From a virus, in IMG/VR virus record IMGVR_UViG_3300042507_004091, positions 1 to 38,099 of that record: 38,099 nucleotides of DNA, one strand, 5' to 3'. The notes beneath the pieces are model-generated. The model had not been told where the DNA came from, made no database searches, and saw only the letters and a list, made by a program, of their open reading frames with translations. Made by a program: the position numbers and the translations under genes. How positions within the stretch are numbered: the first letter of the stretch is position 1; every line of letters begins with the position of its first letter. Shown piece by piece: positions 1 to 38,099 of the stretch.

Positions 1-127
1 TGCAACCCGAGTGCAGACTGGATGTTGGCGATGTTCTGCTGCTGACCAGCCGTGCGCTGCTGTTGTGCGGCCATCTGGCCGGCAAACGTCTGCTGCGCTG
101 CGGTATTCCGTTGGCCAGTAGCTGCCA
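1..127. repeat. Terminal direct repeat, left copy
   Basis: Bases 1-127 are identical to 37973-38099. Both copies lie in the same orientation inside one continuous reading frame, so they are the overlap of a circular assembly and not two biological repeats. A length of exactly 127 equals a common maximum k-mer of de Bruijn graph assemblers, which supports an assembly overlap. The unit genome is therefore 37,972 bp and is either circular in the cell or circularly permuted in the virion. Confidence 0.95.
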
Positions 128-4051: not shown

Positions 4052-5256
4052 TAGAGGCTAATCATCCGGAATTTGATTTTCCATTTATCCGTATCAGATA
4101 TGGGCTGCATTGACCCAGTGCTTCCGGATAGAACGTACAGAGTGCCCGCAACCGTATTAGCCCTTCTGGCGTAAATCGTATTTGCGTCTGACCATACAGA
4201 GAACGCTACGTCGTAGTTTCTTGTGTCTGCTGCGTCATTGGCTATCGCCATAACACAGTCTAGAGAGATCTCATCGTTCTGCGAGTAACCGCAATCACCA
4301 GCAGCGGCAACGCATACCAAAAACCCCTGAAACAGAGTCGGAACAGCGGCAAGGTCGTGAGGGTAAGATTGCAGGCCAGCCTGAAGAGGAATGTCTAGAG
4401 CGCCAGATTGCCTCTTGGTCACCGTCGTTCCAACTGAACTAGAAGCCACCTTCTTGATCTTGTTGGAGTCGGAGACGTCCTGAATCAGAACGAAGTCTCC
4501 AGCAGCGATCGTCTCTGTCGCTGGGTTGAACGCCGCGTTGATCGCAAGGGTATCGGTTGCGTCGCTTCCGATCGTGACGTTGCCATTGAATGTCGCCGGA
4601 GCACTGAATGTCGGCGTGGCAGCCACCGTGAGCGTGTCCGCAGATGAGTCGCCAAGCGTGATGTTACCATTCAGAGCGGCAACACTGTTGAGCGTCGTGG
4701 TGCCGTTGACGGTCAGGTTGTTGGCCAGCGTGATGTTCGAGTTGAACGTGATGCCGCCGTTGAAGATCGCTAGTCCGTTGAACGTGCTCGTTCCCGCAAA
4801 CGTGTTGGATCCACCAGCAGAGTTCTGCTGAATGCCGTAGGCGTTGTTCAGGATCACATACCCGTTGGTCGTGATATTGCCAGCAACGCTGGTGCTACCG
4901 CCAACCGTCAGTGATCCTGTCGTCAACGTCAGCGAACCAGCGCATGTGGTATTCCCGCTGGCGGCTGTGACGTTGAACTTGTTGGTGTTGATCGCGAAGT
5001 TGCCAGTGGCCGACAGGGTTCCAGCGACAGCCGTGTTGCCGCTTGCGCCAGCGACAGTCAGCTTGTCGGTCGCGATCGTGAAGTTCCCGGAAGCAGCAGC
5101 GATGTTGACGCTGGTGGTAGAGAGCTGAAGCGCGGAATCGTTGCCGGAGCCATCCGAGATGGTCTTGAGCGTGGAGTTGATGGCGCCTGTGTCGGTCGTC
5201 TTGAGCAGGCCAGTGTAGGTGCTGGCGACTGTTGAACCTGTCAGTGTGGAACCCAT
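4051..5256 (-). CDS. Tail fibre / spike-like protein
   Basis: A 401-residue protein. Residues about 30-250 consist of short degenerate beta repeats (for example FNGNVTIGSDATDTLAINAA and LNGNITLGDSSADTLTVAAT) rich in Thr, Asn, Gly and Ala, typical of a trimeric fibre shaft. From about residue 275 the composition changes to a compact knob with aromatic residues and several cysteines (CVAAAGDCGYS, LDCVMA), a plausible receptor-binding head. It is the last of four fibre-type genes in this operon and is separated from the others by membrane and lysis-type genes. The start follows one base after the lipoprotein stop. Confidence 0.75.
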   Translation of the reverse strand: MGSTLTGSTVASTYTGLLKTTDTGAINSTLKTISDGSGNDSALQLSTTSVNIAAASGNFTIATDKLTVAGASGNTAVAGTLSATGNFAINTNKFNVTAASGNTTCAGSLTLTTGSLTVGGSTSVAGNITTNGYVILNNAYGIQQNSAGGSNTFAGTSTFNGLAIFNGGITFNSNITLANNLTVNGTTTLNSVAALNGNITLGDSSADTLTVAATPTFSAPATFNGNVTIGSDATDTLAINAAFNPATETIAAGDFVLIQDVSDSNKIKKVASSSVGTTVTKRQSGALDIPLQAGLQSYPHDLAAVPTLFQGFLVCVAAAGDCGYSQNDEISLDCVMAIANDAADTRNYDVAFSVWSDANTIYARRANTVAGTLYVLSGSTGSMQPISDTDKWKIKFRMISL

Positions 5257-5257
5257 A

Positions 5258-5488
5258 TCAGTCTTTCGGAAGTGCGTACCAGCCGGCTGGAATTGTCACG
5301 CGGTTTTGAGATCGGATGCTGTTTCCCTGTGAGTCCAGCACCCAGACTCTAGCCTTGATCGGCTCGGCGATGCGAACTGGCTCGCCTTCAGGAACGAGGA
5401 TCACCCGCGTCGCGCACCCGCTGCTCATGGTCAGCAATGCGACGACGCAGGCGATCTTTGAGATCTGGCTGCTTCTTTGCGTCCTCAC
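5258..5488 (-). CDS. Small outer-membrane lipoprotein (possible o-spanin)
   Basis: A 76-residue protein starting at GTG, with an AAGGA ribosome binding site just upstream. Residues 1-25 form a lipoprotein signal: positive residues, hydrophobic IACVVALLT, then MSSGC with Cys25 as the lipidated residue. The mature part is only about 50 residues and ends GWYALPKD. A short lipoprotein beside a holin-like gene, whose start overlaps a charged small gene in another frame (5388-5558), recalls the Rz/Rz1 spanin arrangement. The lipobox is imperfect, with Ser rather than Leu at -3. A role as tail-associated lipoprotein cannot be excluded. Confidence 0.65.
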   Translation of the reverse strand: MRTQRSSQISKIACVVALLTMSSGCATRVILVPEGEPVRIAEPIKARVWVLDSQGNSIRSQNRVTIPAGWYALPKD

Positions 5489-5558
5489 TGGTCTGGTCCT
5501 TTCTCAGAAGCGACTCAACGAACTTGAGGATCGCGGTGAGGATCTGCTCGATGATCAC
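5388..5558 (-). CDS. Small amphipathic/charged protein overlapping the lipoprotein gene (possible i-spanin analogue)
   Basis: A 56-residue frame with a GTG start that overlaps the holin-like stop (GTGA at 5555-5558). It begins with an amphipathic helix (IIEQILTAILKFVESLL) and continues with a strongly charged helix (LKDRLRRRIADHEQRVRD). Its last 101 bases overlap the lipoprotein gene in a different frame. The arrangement resembles Rz overlapping Rz1, but the N-terminal helix carries Glu and Lys and is a weak membrane anchor. The stop/start coupling on one side supports translation. Function is unproven. Confidence 0.55.
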   Translation of the reverse strand: MIIEQILTAILKFVESLLRKDQTSEDAKKQPDLKDRLRRRIADHEQRVRDAGDPRS

Positions 5559-5737
5559 TGAGCAGGAGGAGTCGTGGCCTTCTTCTTGGACATGATGCCC
5601 CAGGCAGCGGCAACGAGCGTGATGATAGCACCGACAACCTCGGGAAGCTGATCGGCAGAAACGAGTCCCTTGGCGACAAGGAACCCCCCGGCAGCGGAGA
5701 GGATGTGGCGAACGAGAGACTTGACGGAATCATTCAT
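5555..5737 (-). CDS. Holin-like membrane protein
   Basis: A 60-residue protein starting at MNDSVKSL. An upstream in-frame start at 5776 would overlap the neighbour more deeply and is less likely. Residues about 10-24 (ILSAAGGFLVAKGLV) and 32-47 (VVGAIITLVAAAWGIM) form two hydrophobic segments separated by a polar turn, followed by a Lys-rich tail. This is the layout of small two-segment phage holins. Its first 8 bases overlap the stop of another small membrane gene, and the lipoprotein pair follows. Together they form a lysis cassette, although no endolysin is visible. Confidence 0.6.
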   Translation of the reverse strand: MNDSVKSLVRHILSAAGGFLVAKGLVSADQLPEVVGAIITLVAAAWGIMSKKKATTPPAQ

Positions 5738-5936
5738 GCTTTTGGTCTTTCTCTTTGAGTTTGTTGTGAAGCTCAATGACGGCCAGTGCAGCTCTCACGA
5801 GCAGCGTGAACAAGATGACGATTCCAATCGCCGCCTTTGTAAACTCGTTGATCGAGGTGTACTGAACGCCTATTCCTGCGGCACCAAGCACTGCAGAGAC
5901 GCCAGTGGACTTGGCCTGAACAACGAGCGGATCCAT
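5730..5936 (-). CDS. Small membrane protein of the lysis cassette
   Basis: A 68-residue protein with a moderately hydrophobic N-terminal segment (about residues 10-27) and a clear transmembrane helix (about 35-52, AIGIVILFTLLVRAALAV), ending in a charged tail LHNKLKEKDQKHE. It overlaps the holin-like gene by 8 bases (ATGAATGA). It could be a second holin, an antiholin or another lysis regulator. I recognise no family. Confidence 0.6.
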   Translation of the reverse strand: MDPLVVQAKSTGVSAVLGAAGIGVQYTSINEFTKAAIGIVILFTLLVRAALAVIELHNKLKEKDQKHE

Positions 5937-5941
5937 GTGAA

Positions 5942-6274
5942 CTAGCTGTTGGAGTTCCAGGGGAGAGGCGGAACGATGATCGGAGGATTGATCTGATTCT
6001 GGATCTGCTCGTTCACGCTGGTCTCAGTGTTAGCCTTGTCGATTCCAGAAGCCCACACCCAACCCAACACCTCGGCCTGAGTCAGGTTGCTGTACGGGAT
6101 GAACTGCGAGGGATCCGGGGCAACGAAGCTGGCCGTACCGTAGCAGGTGCCACTGTACGTTTTGCCACCACTGACCTGCTCGCCGTTGCAACGCCACGCA
6201 GCGGTGACAACGACGTCGGTGAGACTGCCTTCACTAGGTTTAACCCAGAGCTGTTCGATAACCCATGTGATCAT
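5942..6274 (-). CDS. Small phage protein of the fibre region (DUF7936-like)
   Basis: A 110-residue protein. It has a Trp-rich N-terminal strand region (MITWVIEQLWV), the motif LTQAEVLGWVWA, and a C-terminus ending INPPIIVPPLPW. This overall pattern matches small proteins common in tailed phages and annotated as DUF7936. Their role is unknown, but they usually sit near tail fibre genes, as here. The ATG overlaps the upstream stop by 4 bases (6271-6274). The family name is from memory of the pattern and has not been tested by search. Confidence 0.6.
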   Translation of the reverse strand: MITWVIEQLWVKPSEGSLTDVVVTAAWRCNGEQVSGGKTYSGTCYGTASFVAPDPSQFIPYSNLTQAEVLGWVWASGIDKANTETSVNEQIQNQINPPIIVPPLPWNSNS

Positions 6275-6444
6275 TGGACTTCCTTCTGTTCTTTGTTGAG
6301 TGACTCCTCTTTGGCGGCTGCCGCAGAGACAAGATCGGTGAAGAAGACGCCGGCACGAGCTGCCTGGATGCCGCCTGCTTTGACGGCCACGTCGATGAGG
6401 TTGATGAGGACTTGAGCTTGTTCTTTGTTCAGTTCGATCGTCAT
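6271..6444 (-). CDS. Small helical protein, unknown function
   Basis: A 57-residue frame (begins MTIELNKEQAQVL, ends LNKEQKEVQ). It has a helix-rich, Ala/Val-rich centre (LINLIDVAVKAGGIQAARAG) and near-identical LNKEQ motifs at both ends. It fills the gap between a fibre gene and the DUF7936-like gene, and its stop overlaps the next start by 4 bases. No membrane segment or known domain is seen. Confidence 0.6.
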   Translation of the reverse strand: MTIELNKEQAQVLINLIDVAVKAGGIQAARAGVFFTDLVSAAAAKEESLNKEQKEVQ

Positions 6445-6483
6445 AGGTGCGCGATGGTAGCTAAAGAGGGTGCTGGGGCAAGG

Positions 6484-7089
6484 TTAGTTCCAGAAGTCAG
6501 CCACGAAGGATCTGATCTCAATCTCAGCACCAGATGCTGGACTGGCCAAGGTGTTGACGCAAAGAACCCTCATGTAGAACAAGCTGGCTGAGCTTGAAAT
6601 TGATAAAGTTCCATTCGCACCAGCAAGGTTTCCTGTTGTTTTACCTTTGAAGTCTACGGTATCTATAGTGGTCCAAGTTGAATCATTGTCCGAATACTGA
6701 ATTTTAACTCCAAACTGACCAGATGAAGGCGTTGAGCCGGCCCAGTATGACGGAGCAGATATACATCTAGCTGAGAACCGATAATTTGTCGGTTTGAAAG
6801 GAACCAAAAACTTTACGCATTTAAGAATGCTGTCTGGCTGGTCAACAGCTCCAACTTGTGGCCATCCCCAACCGTCAGCCGCCGAATCAAGGTAGATTGC
6901 TGGATAAGCGGCCAAAAACAGGCCCTCATACAGCGTAATCTGGAAACTTTTACCAGAAGATCCAGACCCACCACCACCATCCGTCACCACCTGTGATGCC
7001 GTGCGTGACTTGACGGTATTACCATCCAGCACGAGCACCTTGGTGCTAGACGAGCTGGTTGCGAAGGTTGCTACGTTGAGGAAGTCCAT
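6484..7089 (-). CDS. Fibre-tip / carbohydrate-binding-like protein
   Basis: A 201-residue protein. The first 30 residues (FATSSSSTKVLVLDGNTV) resemble the short linker found at the N-termini of secondary fibre proteins. A Gly/Ser-rich hinge (GGGGSGSSG) follows at about 38-47, then a beta-sandwich-like region with repeated aromatic strands (YRFSARCISAPSYW, FGVKIQYSDNDSTWTTID) and a C-terminal strand ending FVADFWN. The pattern resembles F5/8-type or discoidin-like binding domains. It is translated directly after the giant fibre (TAATG overlap at 7087-7091), so it may cap or accompany that fibre. Confidence 0.55.
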   Translation of the reverse strand: MDFLNVATFATSSSSTKVLVLDGNTVKSRTASQVVTDGGGGSGSSGKSFQITLYEGLFLAAYPAIYLDSAADGWGWPQVGAVDQPDSILKCVKFLVPFKPTNYRFSARCISAPSYWAGSTPSSGQFGVKIQYSDNDSTWTTIDTVDFKGKTTGNLAGANGTLSISSSASLFYMRVLCVNTLASPASGAEIEIRSFVADFWN

Positions 7090-10000
7090 TAGCCGATGAC
7101 GGTGACAGTGTAGTCTGAACCAGTGACAGACGACGCGAAGATCACAGTGACAGTGTCGGTTGTTGCCATCTGAATGTCGGTGTAGACCAGATCATAGGTG
7201 CTACCAGACTTGCGAACCTGCACGGTGACATCGCGTGTCCCAAGGTTGTGCGTAACCGTGAACGAGGTTCCTGTTCCAGACAAGGCTCCACTGAACTTCC
7301 GGCTCAACTGCTGCCACGCAGTGCCGTTGTGCATCTTGAGCACATTTCCGGTGGAGTAGTACAGGTCACCAGCCGCACCAGTAGGATCCGCTGCAAGGCC
7401 TTTAAAGTTGATCTGACCTGTATTTTTTACACGAAGTCGTTCGACTCCAGTTCCAGTGCTAGATGTCGCTATTACAACGTCGTTGTAGTTGTTCTGAAGA
7501 ACCGTGGTGTTTCCATCAGCTCCCCATAGCTGATAACTTAGAATATCAGCAGTGCTTCCTCCGCTTGTAAGCGATGAAATCTTTGATCCATACGGAAGAC
7601 GCATGGACCCGTTGATTGTAAGAATGAATCCAGATGCTGGGCTAACACCCAACCCAAGATTCCCATCCTTCGTCAGCCGCATCTTCTCCGACAATGTCGT
7701 CGCAGCGGTAGTCGTCCGCGTGACGAAGATCATGTCAGAGGTGCCGTTTACATCTCCGTTGTTCAGTAGCGACTTGATGCCAACGTGCGGGCGTTGCCCG
7801 TTTGCGGTTGCAGCACCAAGTAAAAGCAAGCCGCCGTTGTTCACCCCGTTGACGGTGTCCGACAAGAACAGCGCGGATCCGTCTCCGGAGTCGGAGACCG
7901 AGGTCGTTGCTTGGCCCACGCCTTGGATCTGTGCCGCGTTTAGCGCGGTCACATTCAATCCGACAGAGAAACGACCAGAGGAGTCAATCTGAGCGCGAAC
8001 AAGAGGAGTCAAAGGCTGGTTGGCGCCAGCAGCATTGTTATCAGAACCGTAGAAGACATGTGCTCCGTTGTTTTGGTAGTATTGAGTATACCTTCCGTTC
8101 GCGTAAAACCGCCACTGGTCGGAGAAGTACCCGTTGCTGACAACGCTTGTCGTTGTCCCTGTAGAAGAAATAGCACCCGCGTTTGCAAGGTTCAGAATTG
8201 CACCTCCACCCCAGCCACTAGGAGTGACTGCCAATCCAACGTTTCCGTTTGCGGCGATGGTAAGACGCTGGGTTGTGTTATCTTGAAAAATGAAATTCCG
8301 ATTGGAATCCGTGTAAATGTACCACGGATTCGTCTGCCCGCCTGCAACGAATCCAATCGCAGCCAGTCCAGATGCGCTGGTGTTTTTGAGCCGAAGCTCG
8401 GCTTGCCCATTATACTCGACGTGTAGCGGAAGCGTTGGAGTCGCCGTCCCGATACCAAGTCGTCCCGAGGCGTCGAGGGTCATCCTCTGCGTTAAGGCAC
8501 CAGTTCCGTTTTGTGATGTATAAAACGAAAGTGAAGACCCTACAGATACAGATCCGTTTACAATGTTCCGGATTTCGCTGTTTCCGCCAGAAAATGACGT
8601 ATTGTGAAACCGAAACGATGAGTACTGCTCACTTGCTGCTCCATATCCAACTGTGCTTGCTAGAAAAACAGAACTTTGAGATGAACCGACTTCGAGTTTG
8701 TATGCTCCACTTGGCGTCACCCCCAACCCAAGGTTACCGGAGGAGTCAATTCTCGCCTTCTCACCATTGATCGAGAACGAGATGAACCGGCCAGCAGGGG
8801 CTCCGATCTCGACGTTGGTAGTTGTTCCCCAAAGATAGCCAGATGGCGTATTGTTAATGCTTAGTCCGAAGATTGCTTCGTTCGATCCAGCAGAGGTGAT
8901 GTTTCCGCGATTTGCTGCCGTGTACTGAGCGATTCCGGGTCCAACCAACAAATTCCCCGAGGCGTCGAGGGTCATCTTATTTGTCCCCGCGTCTACTGGG
9001 TCTCCGCCTTGAGCGTTCGATTGGTAGAAGCACAGATCACCAAACGCCTCAACGTTCGAGCGGATGCTCCAATTCCGAGCACTCGAAGAGGAGCTGTTAG
9101 ACGTGAGTGTCAGCGCAGATTGAACTGCTCCGCCAATGTTGAGTTTCCGTACATTCGCAGTGTTTACCGGCGTCACCCCCAACCCAAGGTTGCCAGAGGC
9201 GTCCAGCGTCATTCGATCCGTGAACGTCTGTGATCCGATCGCAGCCTGATTTGAGTTCTGGAAATAGAATGCTCCAGTTACGTTTCGGATTCTTATGCCA
9301 GCATAATTGGATGAAACGCCTGTCCACCTCTGAAGATCAATGAACGGATCATCGCTAACCTGATCGACACGAACTCGAGGAGTTCCGGCTCCAGCAGGCA
9401 TTCCGATGTCCAACTGAGAGCTTGGTGTCGTTATTCCAATTCCAAGCCTGCTGTTCGTGTTGTCCCAATTGAAATTCGCGTTGAATCCAATCGAAGAAGT
9501 GCTCGAAGCAAACGGGATGCGGCCAGCAGTGTAGTTTGTGTCCTGCGCGAAGTGAAACACCCCACCAGACAGCACCATGCCGTTTCCGGCGGTGTAGGAA
9601 CCGGCTTGAGAGAACTTAACGAACGGAACCGGAGTCGTCCCAAGCGTGCCACCAGCATCAGCCGTACATACCCATCCAGAGTCTGCATTTGTTGAACCAG
9701 TTTCGATGAACGTGAATGCACCAACCAGCTCATCCCAAGTGTTGGCATCCAGCGATCGAGTCATCGCTGAAGCAGTTCCGTTCCAGATGTAGATACCGTT
9801 CTGCTGCGACAGACTCTGGTCCTTAACCAAGATGCGGGTGGTTCCGCTGGTGAAGGTTGTCGGATTAATACCGTCGATGAATCCAGATCCGGGTGCGCTT
9901 AGGTTGATGTCCGCAGTGGAAGCCACCAAGCAGCTCGACTTGATGTCCAAACCTTGAGCGACAGAGTCAACGTAGCCCTTGGTGGCCAGCGTGGAGCCGG

Positions 10001-10964
10001 ACGATCCAGAGGTGACGTTGCCGCTGTTGATGATGTTGACCCCGGCGATGTCCAGATCCGCAGTCAGAGCGCCGAATCCGGTCAGCGAGATCGACGACTT
10101 GGCAGTGGCTGCAGGGTTGTTGGAAGCATCACCGACATAGAACTGGCCATTGGCCAGTGCCAATCTAGCCAACGGCAGCGTACCGCTGGAGATGTTTGAA
10201 GCATTGGTCGTGTCAGTAGTGGCAGAAGCGGCTAGACCAGAAACAGAGCCAGCAGGAATCGAAGCAGACCATTGAGGCTTCGTGTTGATTCCATCATAGG
10301 TGAGGATGTAGCCATCCGTTCCAACACCCAGTTTGGCAGTAGTAGCTAGACCGCTCTGGTAAAGAAGTTGACCAGCAGCCCCACCGCTAATATGATTCGC
10401 CGTCGTCGCGGTGGTGGCAGTGGTGGCCGACCCAACGCTCAGCGTTGACTGGTTGACATAGGCCGGGTTGAGGCCATTGCTGGTAAGCACCTGCCCGGCA
10501 GTCCCAACGTTTAGGAACGAGGTTGTACCGCTTCCGGACTGAACAAGGAGATCGCCAACAGCTCCTCCGGGTTTGTTGGTGGCAGATCCAACACTGAGGC
10601 TGGATTGATTGACCCACTCAGGAGCGGTTGCTCCAGAGTTGACTTTCAGAACCTGATCCGCAGTCCCGATGCCGAGAAAGGTCGTGTCTCCAGCCGTTAG
10701 TTGATACGGAAGGCTACCAGCGGCACCTCCGGAGAGATCCGCAGCGACAACTGTCGTGGAGGAACTGTCGAGGATCGTGCGGACATTGGCCCCATCCCAC
10801 CACTTGAGAACTCGGGCAGAGGCTGATCCAGTCGTGTCGGTCCAGAAGTATCCGATGTCGCCACCAGACGACAACGTCGGGTTCCCGGTGCCGATGTTAT
10901 AGACCTTGAAGTCTTGAACCTCGTTCTTGTTGAGCGTGATGGAGTTTAGAAACGGAACTGCCAT
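7089..10964 (-). CDS. Giant tail fibre protein
   Basis: A 1291-residue protein, the longest in the genome. The first 60 residues form an attachment-like domain (FWTDTTG, ARVLKWWDG) of a kind common in phage fibre N-termini. Many Gly/Ser/Thr-rich shaft repeats follow. From about residue 500 at least seven copies of a module ending in a motif like MTLDASGNLGLGVTP (variants ARIDSSGNLGLG, KMRLTKDGNLGLG) separate beta segments that differ from one another. The last 70 residues (VTHNLGTRDVTVQVRKSGS) resemble a small beta-sandwich tip. No peptidase-like intramolecular chaperone ending is visible. It probably forms the main host-recognition fibre. Confidence 0.85.
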   Translation of the reverse strand: MAVPFLNSITLNKNEVQDFKVYNIGTGNPTLSSGGDIGYFWTDTTGSASARVLKWWDGANVRTILDSSSTTVVAADLSGGAAGSLPYQLTAGDTTFLGIGTADQVLKVNSGATAPEWVNQSSLSVGSATNKPGGAVGDLLVQSGSGTTSFLNVGTAGQVLTSNGLNPAYVNQSTLSVGSATTATTATTANHISGGAAGQLLYQSGLATTAKLGVGTDGYILTYDGINTKPQWSASIPAGSVSGLAASATTDTTNASNISSGTLPLARLALANGQFYVGDASNNPAATAKSSISLTGFGALTADLDIAGVNIINSGNVTSGSSGSTLATKGYVDSVAQGLDIKSSCLVASTADINLSAPGSGFIDGINPTTFTSGTTRILVKDQSLSQQNGIYIWNGTASAMTRSLDANTWDELVGAFTFIETGSTNADSGWVCTADAGGTLGTTPVPFVKFSQAGSYTAGNGMVLSGGVFHFAQDTNYTAGRIPFASSTSSIGFNANFNWDNTNSRLGIGITTPSSQLDIGMPAGAGTPRVRVDQVSDDPFIDLQRWTGVSSNYAGIRIRNVTGAFYFQNSNQAAIGSQTFTDRMTLDASGNLGLGVTPVNTANVRKLNIGGAVQSALTLTSNSSSSSARNWSIRSNVEAFGDLCFYQSNAQGGDPVDAGTNKMTLDASGNLLVGPGIAQYTAANRGNITSAGSNEAIFGLSINNTPSGYLWGTTTNVEIGAPAGRFISFSINGEKARIDSSGNLGLGVTPSGAYKLEVGSSQSSVFLASTVGYGAASEQYSSFRFHNTSFSGGNSEIRNIVNGSVSVGSSLSFYTSQNGTGALTQRMTLDASGRLGIGTATPTLPLHVEYNGQAELRLKNTSASGLAAIGFVAGGQTNPWYIYTDSNRNFIFQDNTTQRLTIAANGNVGLAVTPSGWGGGAILNLANAGAISSTGTTTSVVSNGYFSDQWRFYANGRYTQYYQNNGAHVFYGSDNNAAGANQPLTPLVRAQIDSSGRFSVGLNVTALNAAQIQGVGQATTSVSDSGDGSALFLSDTVNGVNNGGLLLLGAATANGQRPHVGIKSLLNNGDVNGTSDMIFVTRTTTAATTLSEKMRLTKDGNLGLGVSPASGFILTINGSMRLPYGSKISSLTSGGSTADILSYQLWGADGNTTVLQNNYNDVVIATSSTGTGVERLRVKNTGQINFKGLAADPTGAAGDLYYSTGNVLKMHNGTAWQQLSRKFSGALSGTGTSFTVTHNLGTRDVTVQVRKSGSTYDLVYTDIQMATTDTVTVIFASSVTGSDYTVTVIG

Positions 10965-15170: not shown

Positions 15171-15431
15171 TTAAAGAATGGATGCCTTTTCTTTCCTAAG
15201 CCTATTGAGTTTTTCCTGCACACTCTTGGCAGTATCTGAAACCGGCTCGATCGAAACGGAGACTGGAGATTTCACACTCGTCTCCGCAGTACTCGCATTC
15301 ACCGAAATTGTCGGGCTGTACTCGCCGCACCAATCTTCCTTTTGGACGATTGGCCATGCGCTCGGCCTCCCGCTCGGGGGATACCTTCTGCATGTGTTTT
15401 GGACGAAATACCGACATTTGGTGCAGGTCAT
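15171..15431 (-). CDS. Cys-rich small protein (CxxC...C...DWCGE type)
   Basis: An 86-residue protein whose ATG overlaps the portal stop (ATGA at 15428-15431). Residues 1-38 hold Cys3, Cys6, Cys14 and Cys35 in the pattern CTKCRYF...CRRYPPSG...DWCGEY, which recurs in many small phage and bacterial proteins and probably binds zinc or an iron-sulfur cluster. The remainder is Ser/Thr/Val-rich with a charged C-terminal helix (VQEKLNRLRKEKAS). A second Cys-rich frame (15202-15417) is nested inside it in another phase, so either both are translated or a frameshift joins them. Confidence 0.65.
   Translation of the reverse strand: MTCTKCRYFVQNTCRRYPPSGRPSAWPIVQKEDWCGEYSPTISVNASTAETSVKSPVSVSIEPVSDTAKSVQEKLNRLRKEKASIL
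15202..15417 (-). CDS. Zinc-ribbon protein nested inside another gene
   Basis: A 71-residue frame starting MSVFRPKHMQKV, 14 bases after the start of the surrounding gene and in a different phase. Its C-terminal half is a convincing zinc ribbon: CEYCGDEC, then a short strand region, then FRYCQECAG. This is CxxC-x(n)-CxxC with the spacing of known ribbons. Such a pattern is unlikely to arise by chance in an unused frame. No good ribosome binding site is seen, so it may be reached by re-initiation or by a frameshift from the outer gene. Confidence 0.5.
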   Translation of the reverse strand: MSVFRPKHMQKVSPEREAERMANRPKGRLVRRVQPDNFGECEYCGDECEISSLRFDRAGFRYCQECAGKTQ

Positions 15432-17359: not shown

Positions 17360-18841
17360 TTATCCGCCGACCTCACAACCTACAAGCGCACCCTCATCGC
17401 CGCCTTCCAGAGGGCCAATTTCATCCTCCATGCGTTCCAGGAGGCTACGACCGTCCTCACCGAGTGCTTTCATGTACTCATCCATGCGTTTACCGCCTCC
17501 GCCGCAGAACGCCAGCACCATGGCGTCTGCCCGATCTGGTGACGCGATGCCTCTGGCCCTCAATTCATCTTTGGATTCAAGCGCCAACTTGCCTTTTCCG
17601 TTGGTCCTGACCTTTCGGGTGATGAACTGGTTGATCAGGATGTCGTCATTGCCTGCCGGACCCAGATTGATCTCGTTCTTCTCAACGGATCGGCCGAATT
17701 CGATCCACATCTCGGCTCCCCGGGACACAAACTGGTCATCTCGGATGGCTTTCTCGCCGAAATTGACACGGCGCACGTCCCAACCCTCCTGTTTTAGGGC
17801 GTCGCACATGACAACACCCATGCCGCCAACATCCGCGTAAATATCTTCGGATTTGAGCCCCCACTTCCGGAACTGATAGATGAATTTCCCAATGGAATTC
17901 ATGGTATCGCGATCTTTCCAGGAGATCAGACCTTTCACCGTATTTCCCTGGCGCACGCAGAGCACGCTTTCGTCGCCACCAGCGGAAAAGTCACATCCTG
18001 CGGTGAGCCGATGCGCCTTCTCGTTGCTCTCCGGAGGCTGAGAGACCGATCTCTGCCAGTCCGCAGTCCGCACGGCTGTGAGCGAACCGTCGTCCTCCAT
18101 GAACTCCGCATAGATCATGGACCGCACCAGCGGATGGTTCTCGCCCCAACGCTGGAACTGCTCGTCGATCCAGTCCTTCTTGATGTGCGGACAGTCGAAT
18201 GCGGTGACTGTGAACGTTTTCCAGCGTCCGTCGTTGCGTCGGAACACCTCGTAGAAGTATCCGCCGGAACCCCCGGGGCTGGACATCATCAGAACCCGGC
18301 TAGGCTGACAGCGTTCCATCGACTGGAAGATGCCATCTGGAACCGCCTTGGCCTCGTCGATGATGTAGAGCAGGTTGTGAGATGGTCCTTGGCAGTGCCA
18401 GCCTTCCGCCTTCTCCGGGTTTGACGCAGAGAACCCGATGCATCGGCTTTCCTCGCCCGGTTTGCAGCCTGCCCGCAGATAGGTGATCTCACCGTCGATG
18501 ACCTTGAACCCCGAATCAGGTCCGCCAAGGCCATTGGTGTACCGCTTGATGTACGGCCAGAGGGCGTCGGCCACCTGACGATAGACGCCGGCGGTGCAGA
18601 CGCAGAGGGCACCCTTGAACATGACCAGGTGCCACACCACAGCGGCTGCTGCGACGATGCTGGTCTTGCCGGAGCCGTTGGCTGCCTTGAGCGCCACCCT
18701 GGAATGCTTGGCGCACAGGGCGTCGAGCACGTTCTCCTGCCATGGATACACCTCGAGGCCCAGCATGAGCTTCGGGAAGTTCCGCAATTCGCTCGCTTCT
18801 TCGATGAGCTTCTTGCGTTTCCATGCCGGCATCTTGCTCAT
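17360..18841 (-). CDS. terL: Terminase large subunit
   Basis: A 493-residue packaging motor. The ATPase has Walker A at residues 55-61 (NGSGKTS) and Walker B LLYIIDEA with Asp162 and Glu163, followed by a coupling motif at SSPGGSG. The nuclease domain shows Asp284 (CDFSAGGDE), Asp337 (DVGGMG) and a third acidic cluster near 436-439 (SPDRADAM), the RNase H-like triad. The ATG overlaps the stop of a 58-residue gene by 4 bases, and the portal follows. All expected catalytic residues are present. The small terminase is separated from it by about 3.8 kb of small genes. Confidence 0.95.
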   Translation of the reverse strand: MSKMPAWKRKKLIEEASELRNFPKLMLGLEVYPWQENVLDALCAKHSRVALKAANGSGKTSIVAAAAVVWHLVMFKGALCVCTAGVYRQVADALWPYIKRYTNGLGGPDSGFKVIDGEITYLRAGCKPGEESRCIGFSASNPEKAEGWHCQGPSHNLLYIIDEAKAVPDGIFQSMERCQPSRVLMMSSPGGSGGYFYEVFRRNDGRWKTFTVTAFDCPHIKKDWIDEQFQRWGENHPLVRSMIYAEFMEDDGSLTAVRTADWQRSVSQPPESNEKAHRLTAGCDFSAGGDESVLCVRQGNTVKGLISWKDRDTMNSIGKFIYQFRKWGLKSEDIYADVGGMGVVMCDALKQEGWDVRRVNFGEKAIRDDQFVSRGAEMWIEFGRSVEKNEINLGPAGNDDILINQFITRKVRTNGKGKLALESKDELRARGIASPDRADAMVLAFCGGGGKRMDEYMKALGEDGRSLLERMEDEIGPLEGGDEGALVGCEVGG

Positions 18842-22076: not shown

Positions 22077-22246
22077 GCGGCCTCCCTCCGGTCAGTCCAC
22101 CGCTCGCCAGTCACCAGCTCCTCCAGCATCTCAATGCGCTCACGCAGTTGGCCAATCTCCTCCTCCAGCTTCCGCGCAAACTCCGAATCCACTACCCACC
22201 GCTCCGGACCAATCTGCCACTCCGCATGTGACGTGCGATCACTCAT
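22073..22246 (-). CDS. Small coiled-coil protein of the coupled gene chain
   Basis: A 57-residue protein from the ATG at 22246 (MSDRTSHAEWQ). A longer frame to 22360 has a low-quality N-terminus overlapping the previous gene. Residues 20-50 form a coiled coil (EFARKLEEEIGQLRERIEML). The ATG overlaps the preceding stop (22243-22246), and GGAGGGCC provides the ribosome binding site inside the preceding gene. Confidence 0.65.
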   Translation of the reverse strand: MSDRTSHAEWQIGPERWVVDSEFARKLEEEIGQLRERIEMLEELVTGERWTDRREAA

Positions 22247-22449
22247 GCCTTGGCCCTCCTGCCCGCACGCCCACGCTTGAAGTTCAGCACCCGCCGCTCC
22301 TCCAACGCCCTCAACTCCTCCGCAAAGCTCGGATCCGTCAAGCCACGCCTCCGTAACCAAGCCCGATACTTCTCGTTGAAATACTCCTGGCTCATACCCG
22401 GATCCGCAGGACCCACGTCGGCCACCCTCTGCACAGTCATCTTGCCCAT
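22243..22449 (-). CDS. First gene of the small-gene chain, basic protein
   Basis: A 68-residue protein beginning MGKMTVQRVADV. Residues 20-68 are basic and helical (YFNEKYRAWLRRRGLTD, ALEERRVLNFKRGRAGRRAKA), a possible nucleic acid binding tail. It is the first gene after the promoter/operator at 22459-22489 and begins only about 10 bases from it, so the message may be nearly leaderless. Function is unknown. Confidence 0.65.
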   Translation of the reverse strand: MGKMTVQRVADVGPADPGMSQEYFNEKYRAWLRRRGLTDPSFAEELRALEERRVLNFKRGRAGRRAKA

Positions 22450-22458
22450 AGCAGGACG

Positions 22459-22489
22459 CAGTGTTGCACTGTGTGCGCTATGTTGTCAA
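22459..22489 (-). promoter_or_regulatory. Promoter/operator of the small-gene operon (copy B)
   Basis: On the minus strand TTGACA (22484-22489) is followed 16 bases later by GCAACACTG (22459-22467), just upstream of the ATG at 22449. The same two elements with the same spacing occur before the replication operon (32493-32523). The downstream element here forms CAGTG-caa-CACTG, an inverted repeat suited to a dimeric repressor. No good TATAAT is present, so this may be a regulator-dependent promoter. Confidence 0.6.
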
Positions 22490-22509
22490 GCGTTGCAACA
22501 GTTGGAAAT

Positions 22510-22576
22510 GGGGTGGGTGGCGGAGAGGGGGGGCTAAATCTAAACCCACCCCCCCGTGGGGGTCCCCCCTACCCCC
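22510..22576. other. G/C-tract region with G-quadruplex and hairpin potential
   Basis: The plus strand has GGGGTGGGT (22510-22518), a later run of seven G, and then the complementary ACCCACCCC (22544-22552). The minus strand reads G5, G6, G7 and G3 runs between 22576 and 22545. Both strands can form G-quadruplexes, or the two G/C arms can pair in a long hairpin. It lies between the promoter at 22459 and the parS-like palindrome in the 220-bp gene-free gap, which holds no convincing reading frame. Confidence 0.5.
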
Positions 22577-22597
22577 GTCGTCCGTCAACGGTATCAA

Positions 22598-22613
22598 TGT
22601 TCCACGTGGAACA
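22598..22613. promoter_or_regulatory. parS: parS-like centromere site (perfect 16-bp palindrome)
   Basis: TGTTCCACGTGGAACA is a perfect palindrome and fits the bacterial parS consensus TGTTNCACGTGNAACA, the binding site of the chromosome-partition protein ParB. It lies in a gene-free gap between the small terminase and the small-gene operon. No ParA or ParB gene is present in this genome. It may recruit the host ParB for partition of a carried phage genome, titrate ParB, or be bound by an unrelated phage regulator. Confidence 0.7.
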
Positions 22614-22622
22614 ATGGTGCGT

Positions 22623-22632
22623 TAGCGTTAAC
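22623..22632. repeat. Copy of the TAGCGTTAAC motif shared with the origin region
   Basis: TAGCGTTAAC occurs here and again at 24777-24786. A related TATCGTTAACG lies at 24841-24851, and a further GTGCGTTAGC core is shared between 22617-22626 and the minus strand near 23165-23174. The copies lie in the non-coding parts flanking the plus-strand island, so they may be binding sites for a replication or regulatory protein. Confidence 0.35.
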
Positions 22633-22669
22633 GAGACCCAGTTCCATGCACAGTAAAGGTTATATTCAA

Positions 22670-23104
22670 TCACCTTTCCCGTTCAGCAACTGAGCTAAGT
22701 AGTTGGTGCGCAATTGTTAGCGTGGATCCACCTTTGCCGGTATGTTCCATGGATGCTCGTGCAACGTACCCGCGGGTGCGTTCAAGCAACCATGCAGACC
22801 CTTGCCACCCTTGCCCGGCCTCACGTACAGACCGTTGCAGCTGCAATTCACCCAACACCTGTGCGTTTTTGAGCTCCGTTGCAAAGTCAGGGTGGGCATC
22901 CAGCCACCTATGCCATTGGGTTTCGTTCCCGGCCGGGAATCCGCACAGGATAGCCACCTTGTCCATGGTCATTCCTAGCGCGGCCGCATCCAGCGCGTCT
23001 TTTTTTTGGGTGGCTGACAACACCTTAGACAGGGCCCCCAGTACACCCTTTGCGCGCTTCCTTCCTGACTTGGCTACAGCTGCAGGTTCCATGCTCCCCC
23101 CCAT
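22670..23104 (-). CDS. terS: Terminase small subunit-like protein
   Basis: About 144 residues from the ATG at 23104. A TTG at 23128 with an AGGA site is an alternative. Residues about 25-65 (KKDALDAAALGMTMDKVAIL) contain the helix-turn-helix found in small terminases, followed by a QWHRWLDAHPDFATEL pattern and the helical core EAGQGWQGSAWLLERTRGYV, where a Trp and LLER recur in this family. It would bind the packaging site and recruit the large subunit. It is transcribed alone from a divergent promoter region. Confidence 0.7.
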   Translation of the reverse strand: MGGSMEPAAVAKSGRKRAKGVLGALSKVLSATQKKDALDAAALGMTMDKVAILCGFPAGNETQWHRWLDAHPDFATELKNAQVLGELQLQRSVREAGQGWQGSAWLLERTRGYVARASMEHTGKGGSTLTIAHQLLSSVAERER

Positions 23105-23179
23105 ACCCAAAAAATTCCCCCTTGCCAAGTCTCGGTTCCTGACGTAGAACCTCTCCCGTCTTAGCTAACGCACTACACT

Positions 23180-23569: not shown

Positions 23570-24265
23570 ATGAACGTCCACCTTACCCTAAAGTCCACCA
23601 ACGCAAAGACCGGACCGATTCCCGTCTCAACCTCCCCAAACTCAACCTGCCCTCCGGCTTGCCCCTTCCTCGGCGAAGGATGCTATGCTGACAATGGCCC
23701 GCTGAAAATCCACTGGTTGCAAGTCAGCAAGAGAACCCGCGGTGAACCTTGGAAGGTCTTCCTGTCCCGTGTCCGTAGCCTTCCGGAGTCTCAACTCTGG
23801 CGCCACAACCAAGCCGGGGACCTTCCCGGCGCCGGAAACCGGATTGACGCCGTCCGGCTGAACCAGTTGGCCAGTTCCAACAAGGGAAGGAAGGGCTTCA
23901 CCTATACCCACAAGCCTGTGATCCGGACCGAAGGCGTTCCTTCCAAAGTCGTCCAGGGCAATTTGCGGACAGTCAAAGCGGCCGTTGCCAAGGGCTTCAC
24001 GGTCAATCTGTCTGGGAACAACGTAGAGCATGCTGACCGCCTTGCCCGAACCGGCCTTCCGGTCGCGACAGTTGTCGCTCCTGGTGCTCCCGCTCGTTTC
24101 CTGACACCGGCCGGGAACAAGGTGGTCATTTGCCCCGCGCAGCGTTCGGAAACCACCACTTGCGCGACGTGCCGACTTTGTTCGCGAGCCGATAGGGGTT
24201 TCATGATCGGATTTTTACCCCACGGAACCGGAGCGAAGAAAGTCTCGGCCGTAGCCTGCCAGTAG
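23570..24265 (+). CDS. Cys-rich phage protein (DUF7227-like)
   Basis: A 231-residue protein. N-terminal cysteines form STCPPACPFLGEGCYA, which looks like a metal or Fe-S site. A central helical region follows (VVQGNLRTVKAAVAKGFTVN), and the C-terminus holds CPAQRSETTTCATCRLCSRA with four cysteines. The order matches an uncharacterised phage family annotated as DUF7227. The dense cysteines suggest iron-sulfur or radical chemistry, but no canonical CxxxCxxC SAM motif is seen. It is preceded by an AACCTACC leader instead of a Shine-Dalgarno sequence. Confidence 0.65.
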   Translation: MNVHLTLKSTNAKTGPIPVSTSPNSTCPPACPFLGEGCYADNGPLKIHWLQVSKRTRGEPWKVFLSRVRSLPESQLWRHNQAGDLPGAGNRIDAVRLNQLASSNKGRKGFTYTHKPVIRTEGVPSKVVQGNLRTVKAAVAKGFTVNLSGNNVEHADRLARTGLPVATVVAPGAPARFLTPAGNKVVICPAQRSETTTCATCRLCSRADRGFMIGFLPHGTGAKKVSAVACQ

Positions 24266-37529: not shown

Positions 37530-38099
37530 GGGTCACCTCCGAGATCTTTGAGCGCATCCACTTGGCCACCAGCTTCTGCAGCGTCGGCTTGTTGGACAGC
37601 CAGCCAGCGACAGCCTTGGAATGCGTATTGTACAAATTGCGGAACCAGTCAGGAGCGAGCAGCTCCTTCCAGAAGTAGAACGCTTCCCATTCGTCGGGAA
37701 CGCAGAGTCGAGCGACGTGGCAGCCAGCAAGACCTCCGACGCCTTTGCCGAGGTTTCCGATCGCATTCGTGATCGCGCCAAGATAGGCGAACCCACTGTT
37801 GGCCTGCGACGCCTGAAACTCGTTCTGCGCGTTCTGCATGGCGAACTGCGAACCCATGCCGAGAAGCTGGCCAGGGCCTGCCTGCTGCATGCCTTGGACG
37901 TATTGTCCTTGGGCAAACGGTGAAGCGCCCTGCTGCAGACCACCCAACTGAGCAGCCTGAGAGACAATCGGCTGCAACCCGAGTGCAGACTGGATGTTGG
38001 CGATGTTCTGCTGCTGACCAGCCGTGCGCTGCTGTTGTGCGGCCATCTGGCCGGCAAACGTCTGCTGCGCTGCGGTATTCCGTTGGCCAGTAGCTGCCA
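37522..38099 (-). CDS. Tail/ejection-region protein, C-terminal part (continues at 1-872)
   Basis: This is the end of the 440-residue gene that starts at 872 in the other arm. In the circle it is one continuous 1,323-base gene. The C-terminus contains a Gly-rich helix (LGAITNAIGNLGKGVGGLAG), then an aromatic cluster (DEWEAFYFWKELLAPDWFRN) followed by a basic helix. The aromatic cluster could contact membrane or another protein. The start at 38046 seen in isolation is an internal ATG. Confidence 0.8.
   Translation of the reverse strand, partial: AATGQRNTAAQQTFAGQMAAQQQRTAGQQQNIANIQSALGLQPIVSQAAQLGGLQQGASPFAQGQYVQGMQQAGPGQLLGMGSQFAMQNAQNEFQASQANSGFAYLGAITNAIGNLGKGVGGLAGCHVARLCVPDEWEAFYFWKELLAPDWFRNLYNTHSKAVAGWLSNKPTLQKLVAKWMRSKISEVTHG
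37973..38099. repeat. Terminal direct repeat, right copy
   Basis: Identical to bases 1-127. One of the two copies must be removed before the genome is treated as a circle, so positions 1-127 and 37973-38099 are the same DNA. Confidence 0.95.

Follow-up and report, generated by a model that had tools for sequence, protein, structure and literature searches.

A predicted host-type parS site in a phage genome with no recognised ParA or ParB gene

What might a phage that encodes neither ParA nor ParB do with a perfect copy of the bacterial centromere sequence parS? The question is raised by IMG/VR record IMGVR_UViG_3300042507_004091, all 38,099 nucleotides of which make up the stretch of DNA analysed here (the window). 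At 22598-22613 a 16-bp perfect palindrome, TGTTCCACGTGGAACA, matches the bacterial parS consensus TGTTNCACGTGNAACA exactly, as the first-pass annotation had proposed. It had also placed the palindrome in a gene-free gap, and this is borne out: in the 220-bp stretch 22450-22669 a mechanical 61-aa ORF is the only frame that crosses the palindrome. The features referred to below are as follows.

1..127, plus strand: end repeat, identical to 37973-38099
17360..18841, minus strand: terminase large subunit gene (TerL; PHROG 2, E=6e-35), used as query for relatives
22243..22449, minus strand: small leftward ORF, the first past the gap, without a family match
22450..22669, no strand: non-coding gap of 220 bp with the palindrome; conservation is strong in its left part (22451-22504), and about half of the columns around the site are variable
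22451..22504, minus strand: block preceding the leftward operon, conserved in the alignment, with a TTGACA-like box (22489-22484) and GTTGCAC/GTTGCAAC repeats (22463-22469 and 22492-22499)
22598..22613, no strand: parS-like 16-bp palindrome TGTTCCACGTGGAACA, invariant in L191/L193, L197 and L220
22670..23128, minus strand: terminase small-subunit-like gene (terS), with a weak PHROG 4102 match (E=4.6e-4)
23570..24265, plus strand: DUF7227 gene on the far side of terS (PF23872, E=4e-84), used as query for relatives of the slot

The gap is bounded by the leftward ORF at 22243-22449 and the leftward terS-like ORF at 22670-23128, and small and structural genes follow beyond it in a leftward series. 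The palindrome is downstream of terS, with 57 bp between its end and the terS stop codon, and the leftward operon starts ~150 bp away from it. Even with up to three mismatches allowed, where chance alone would give about 1.3 matches, the 38.1-kb window holds no further match to TGTTNCACGTGNAACA; the chance expectation for an exact 14-letter match is about 1e-4 (38 kb/4^14). The single copy reported at first pass is thus correct for this genome, and a close relative (L197/G004) has two, the second being exact, 471 bp away and inside terS. An A adjoins the site on each side (the right-hand one being T on the other strand), in keeping with the flank preference of chromosomal parS (A or T at position -1, with C avoided). 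We also considered the palindrome as an intrinsic terminator and rejected this, since a terminator scan calls none there. The conserved block at 22451-22504 is a possible leftward control region, judging from its alignment; a consensus scan of the block found no promoter. The GTTGCAC/GTTGCAAC repeats around the TTGACA-like box may be the operator of some repressor.

The first 127 bases of the record are the same as the last 127, an exact overlap. The window is therefore a complete circular or terminally redundant phage genome of ~38 kb, and the statement that it has no ParA or ParB holds genome-wide. Its recognised phage genes include terminase, portal, capsid, tail, primase, helicase, exonuclease and RecT; no lysogeny or plasmid-maintenance gene was recognised in the window, and the phage collection holds no DNA match to it. 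The first-pass annotation had seen no ParA/ParB gene, and the profile searches agree over the complete genome: neither ParB_N (PF02195) nor the ParA-type AAA_31 (PF13614), which was positive in 14 of 14 control genomes, has a match in the window, and a profile built from Verrucomicrobiota ParBs has no hit at E<10 in any of the six frames.

The same absence extends to other site-bearing viral records, none of 50 of which has a ParB_N match. The first filter of the genome search was lossy and missed a weak integrase in L010/G043, and because of this the loci were searched again for ParB with our own profile, which gave a single weak match (L020, E=1.4e-4). For the same reason an integrase census (PF00589, 0/49) was discarded. 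One relative with 76% TerL identity contains a ParB_N-like domain (G026:C1:26406-26642) within a 1692-aa open frame, probably a polyvalent protein. From these sequence comparisons, a predicted host-type parS in a phage without ParA or ParB is well supported.

If the palindrome matters to the phage, one might expect its relatives to keep it. Relatives were gathered by large-terminase and DUF7227 searches, and four different phages, namely the window phage, L191 (=L193), L197 (=L221) and L220, were found to share the gap. All 16 bases are exact in all four, as against 51 invariant columns among the 100 nearby (40 bases to the left and 60 to the right of the site); 16 invariant columns in a row would have a probability of about 2e-5 ((0.51)^16), a rough figure that assumes independent columns. 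Between the window phage and its group TerS is only 45-48% identical, yet the 16 bases do not differ. That the palindrome is kept in the closest relatives while its flanks drift points to evolutionary maintenance.

A sister group (DUF7227 identity 55-58%) carries the palindrome in the same slot, at the 3' end of terS, as an exact site in L249 and with one mismatch in L247 and L260. At up to one mismatch, the 80 DUF7227 loci (689 kb in all) contain six parS sites, versus none for five control motifs. These three are the only sister loci, out of 40, with a site at the slot; the other 37 lack it, though their TerS is homologous. Three near-full-length relatives with 76% TerL identity (G008, G009 and G027) have no site at up to two mismatches. 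The first-pass annotation had named absence or drift in close relatives as evidence against its reading, and the outcome is divided: the closest four phages show no drift, but the site is missing at the slot in the 76%-TerL relatives and in most sister loci. This distribution suggests that the site is kept within some lineages and quickly gained and lost between lineages.

Five 76%-TerL relatives (G016, G022, G026, G035 and G036) carry CGTTCCACGTGGAACA sites, which were rejected as relocated parS because, where read, they are coding (codons TGT TCC ACG TGG AAC, one mismatch) and a synonymous change breaks that of G030. Near TerL homologues in Verrucomicrobiota genomes, within the short loci available, there is no exact or one-mismatch parS.

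Bare parS sites extend well beyond this family. At least 120 viral contigs hold the exact 16-mer, compared with 12, 2 and 1 for three permuted palindromes of the same composition. An 18-mer containing the 16-mer occurs in 52 contigs, and that flank is found at 2 of 127 sampled sites; the extrapolated total is ~3,000 viral contigs with the 16-mer, a rough value with a very wide error. Among the matches listed, 120 contigs fall into 101 clusters that are unrelated around the site, and the sites lie outside ORFs of at least 100 aa more often (45%) than do positions drawn at random from those contigs (19%; p=3e-9). Most phage records of a set of 39 longer ones (~2.4 Mb) have one exact copy; together they hold nine exact copies beyond the one that retrieved each record, while the reversed pattern is not found even at one mismatch. 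Viral contigs may include some host DNA; the neighbours of the site in unrelated contigs are varied (capsid, tail sheath, terminase, portal, sigma factor and integrase), and where capsid, tail sheath, terminase or portal genes stand beside it, these are therefore phage regions.

Isolate phages point the same way. Among isolate-collection records, 159 have the extended CC/GG motif, most of them from phages of Pseudomonas, Mycobacterium and Bacillus, and 356 have the TT/AA form, including phages of Microbacterium, Arthrobacter, Gordonia and Lactobacillus (two controls: 7 and 0); the counts are redundant, include suspected host contigs and should be read for direction only. The parS-rich records named 'Listeria phage LM 4-11-1/4-14-1' (OR846716-OR849501) were excluded, as these contigs (1-65 kb, without annotation) resemble those of a host draft genome. 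By the viral-contig counts, a bare host centromere in phages without ParB appears to be far commoner than chance across many phages.

Several individual records deserve mention in their own right. A 29-kb viral contig (IMGVR_UViG_3300003650_000024, L105) has five exact parS sites within ~6 kb (4324-10457) and no ParB_N match, which makes it a promising candidate for a clustered phage centromere. The Xenohaliotis phage KY296500 (L410), whose host is intracellular and rickettsia-like, has exact sites at 15413, 15822 and 17747 and no annotated ParAB. In phiPsa374 (KJ409772, L409) the site at position 389 falls within the direct terminal repeat of Otagovirus phages and is probably present at both genome ends. 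Several records of Microviridae, which are small ssDNA phages (H29, H132, H141 and H147-H151), match the parS query over at least 16 bases, and their replicative form might bind host ParB.

The bases just outside the 16-mer, two of which were considered, were not part of the search pattern, and they are biased. At position -1 the viral sites have A in 53%, T in 28%, G in 16% and C in 4%, against 53%, 34%, 9% and 3% at 32 Verrucomicrobiota chromosomal sites; at -2, A is found in 44% of the viral and 55% of the chromosomal sites. Intergenic viral sites alone keep the bias at -1 (A in 41 of 82, C in 5 of 82), so codon effects are not its whole cause. ParB as a shared reader would be the simplest cause of a common flank bias.

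Verrucomicrobiota are a plausible candidate host of the window phage. Relatives of its TerL in genome assemblies come from two Verrucomicrobiota MAGs and two Chloroflexota MAGs, the latter on short contigs, and more distant TerL homologues lie in long Verrucomicrobiota contigs. The parS consensus is present in 107 of 195 Verrucomicrobiota genomes, with those listed being of the CC/GG form, while the reversed control is present in two; a strong ParB is encoded in all 20 Verrucomicrobiota genomes checked.

We favor the explanation that the palindrome functions as a parS read by host chromosomal ParB, which stations or co-segregates the phage genome in a delayed infection, and give it a probability of about 0.55. 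Its first element, that host ParB would bind at the site, is well supported, albeit indirectly. After infection, host ParB-CTP clamps would load at parS and slide onto the neighbouring phage DNA, and the loaded ParB would couple this DNA to ParA (and SMC) of the host. In this way the phage genome could be placed with the host origin region and, in a delayed lysis, be inherited by daughter cells, as is reported at second hand for phi29 and Spo0J. Since terS lies on one side of the site and the leftward structural operon on the other, the ParB load may also restrain late transcription or packaging until replication raises the copy number and dilutes ParB. Most likely, ParB would tie the position and inheritance of the phage to the host segregation system during a delayed or slow infection. 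Against this explanation stand the missing sites in G008, G009, G027 and 37 of 40 sister loci, the lack of any recognised lysogeny or plasmid-maintenance gene that would show when partition matters, and a single copy where phi29 has four.

Granted that ParB binds, its benefit might lie in the control of transcription or packaging itself, with clamps spreading from the gap between terS and the leftward operon to silence late genes or block terminase early. The spacing of the site (57 bp past terS and ~150 bp from the operon start) and its use of the same slot in the sister group speak for this, but the neighbours in unrelated contigs, from capsid, tail sheath and terminase to sigma factor and integrase, offer no common regulated gene, and the phi29 sites are scattered over connector, lysis and early regions; we consider it rather unlikely as the main benefit. 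Alternatively, replicated phage genomes might act as a decoy, titrating ParB (and SMC) from host parS and upsetting chromosome segregation or division. Copy number does climb with replication, and in the analogous SGI1, parS-like sites serve to destabilise the helper plasmid (PMC10954446); nevertheless, one site per genome, the usual number in the phage records, makes a weak decoy, and the phi29 precedent, as reported at second hand, favors positioning, which leaves a decoy improbable. Both functions proposed at first pass, partition as a plasmid-like episome and the trapping of ParB, are compatible with the sequence.

The remaining explanations do without ParB. A phage protein, TerS or a repressor for example, could use the palindrome as its operator or packaging signal, the likeness to parS being coincidental, and the palindrome does adjoin terS in two phage groups, in a gap that has other conserved repeats. 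To this we give little credence: the 16 bases stay identical in the window's group while TerS falls to 45-48% identity, 37 of 40 sister phages have a homologous TerS and no site, and the same 16-mer is enriched beside unrelated genes with the flanks of chromosomal parS. A chance origin is rejected on the control palindromes and the relatives. More broadly, a functionless site, arisen by chance or by recent hitch-hiking of host DNA, would fit the absence in relatives, by which the site is dispensable over evolutionary time, but conservation under drift, the two copies in L197 and the enrichment in viral contigs over controls make this very improbable.

Extending the favored explanation, that host ParB reads the site, to other phages calls for more caution. 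The bare host centromere may be a widespread and repeatedly evolved strategy of ParAB-less phages in many phyla, mostly with non-sporulating hosts, by which ParB (perhaps with SMC) would station the genome, restrain late functions or share the genome between daughters in deferred lysis, with neither integration nor partition genes of the phage's own; we put this forward tentatively, at a little short of even odds. Prior surveys of parS in phages may exist beyond the open-licence literature drawn on here. Phage phi29 is usually regarded as an exception linked to sporulation. Should a bare parS recruit host ParB in many phage contigs, a phage that lacks lysogeny genes may still owe its inheritance or its position to the segregation machinery of the host; this would supply a mechanism for pseudolysogeny and carrier states, conditions that lack defined genes. 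The site would also predict a host trait, namely a ParB of matching specificity.

Among known systems, the chromosomal parS of ParABS is the closest in sequence, with an identical 16 bp and the same flank preference; it differs in that the window site is on a phage, with no parAB operon and no cluster of sites near oriC. The phage-plasmids P1 and N15 and the cyanophage Mic1 have their own ParA, ParB and parS. They resemble the window phage in that a ParB/parS system acts on the phage genome (a prediction for the window phage), but the genes for ParA and ParB, which they carry, are missing from the window phage. The parS mimics of SGI1 bind the ParB of its helper IncC plasmid and raise SGI1 stability (PMC10954446). 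Here too a mobile element carries a parS mimic alone and borrows the ParAB of another replicon, although the mimic is of the helper's plasmid type and in two copies, and SGI1 is an integrative element and not a phage using chromosomal ParB.

The best parallel is with phi29 (NC_011048, L406), a virulent phage whose annotation has no ParB gene and whose genome holds four exact TGTTTCACGTGGAACA sites (10445, 15903, 17243 and 18760), where 0.09 would be expected by chance even at two mismatches. These are spread over the connector, lysis and early regions, and one comes directly after the terminase gene. Host Spo0J/ParB is reported to entrap the phi29 genome in the spore (Meijer et al. 2005, as cited in PMC9437464). 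Phi29 and its Salasvirus relatives share with the window phage an exact host-type parS and the lack of a phage ParB; they differ in the protein-primed linear genome, the sporulating host with Spo0A control and the four sites, whereas the window phage is unrelated, has a single site and gives no indication of a spore-forming host. With phi29 as precedent, an orphan host-type parS on a phage is not new in principle.
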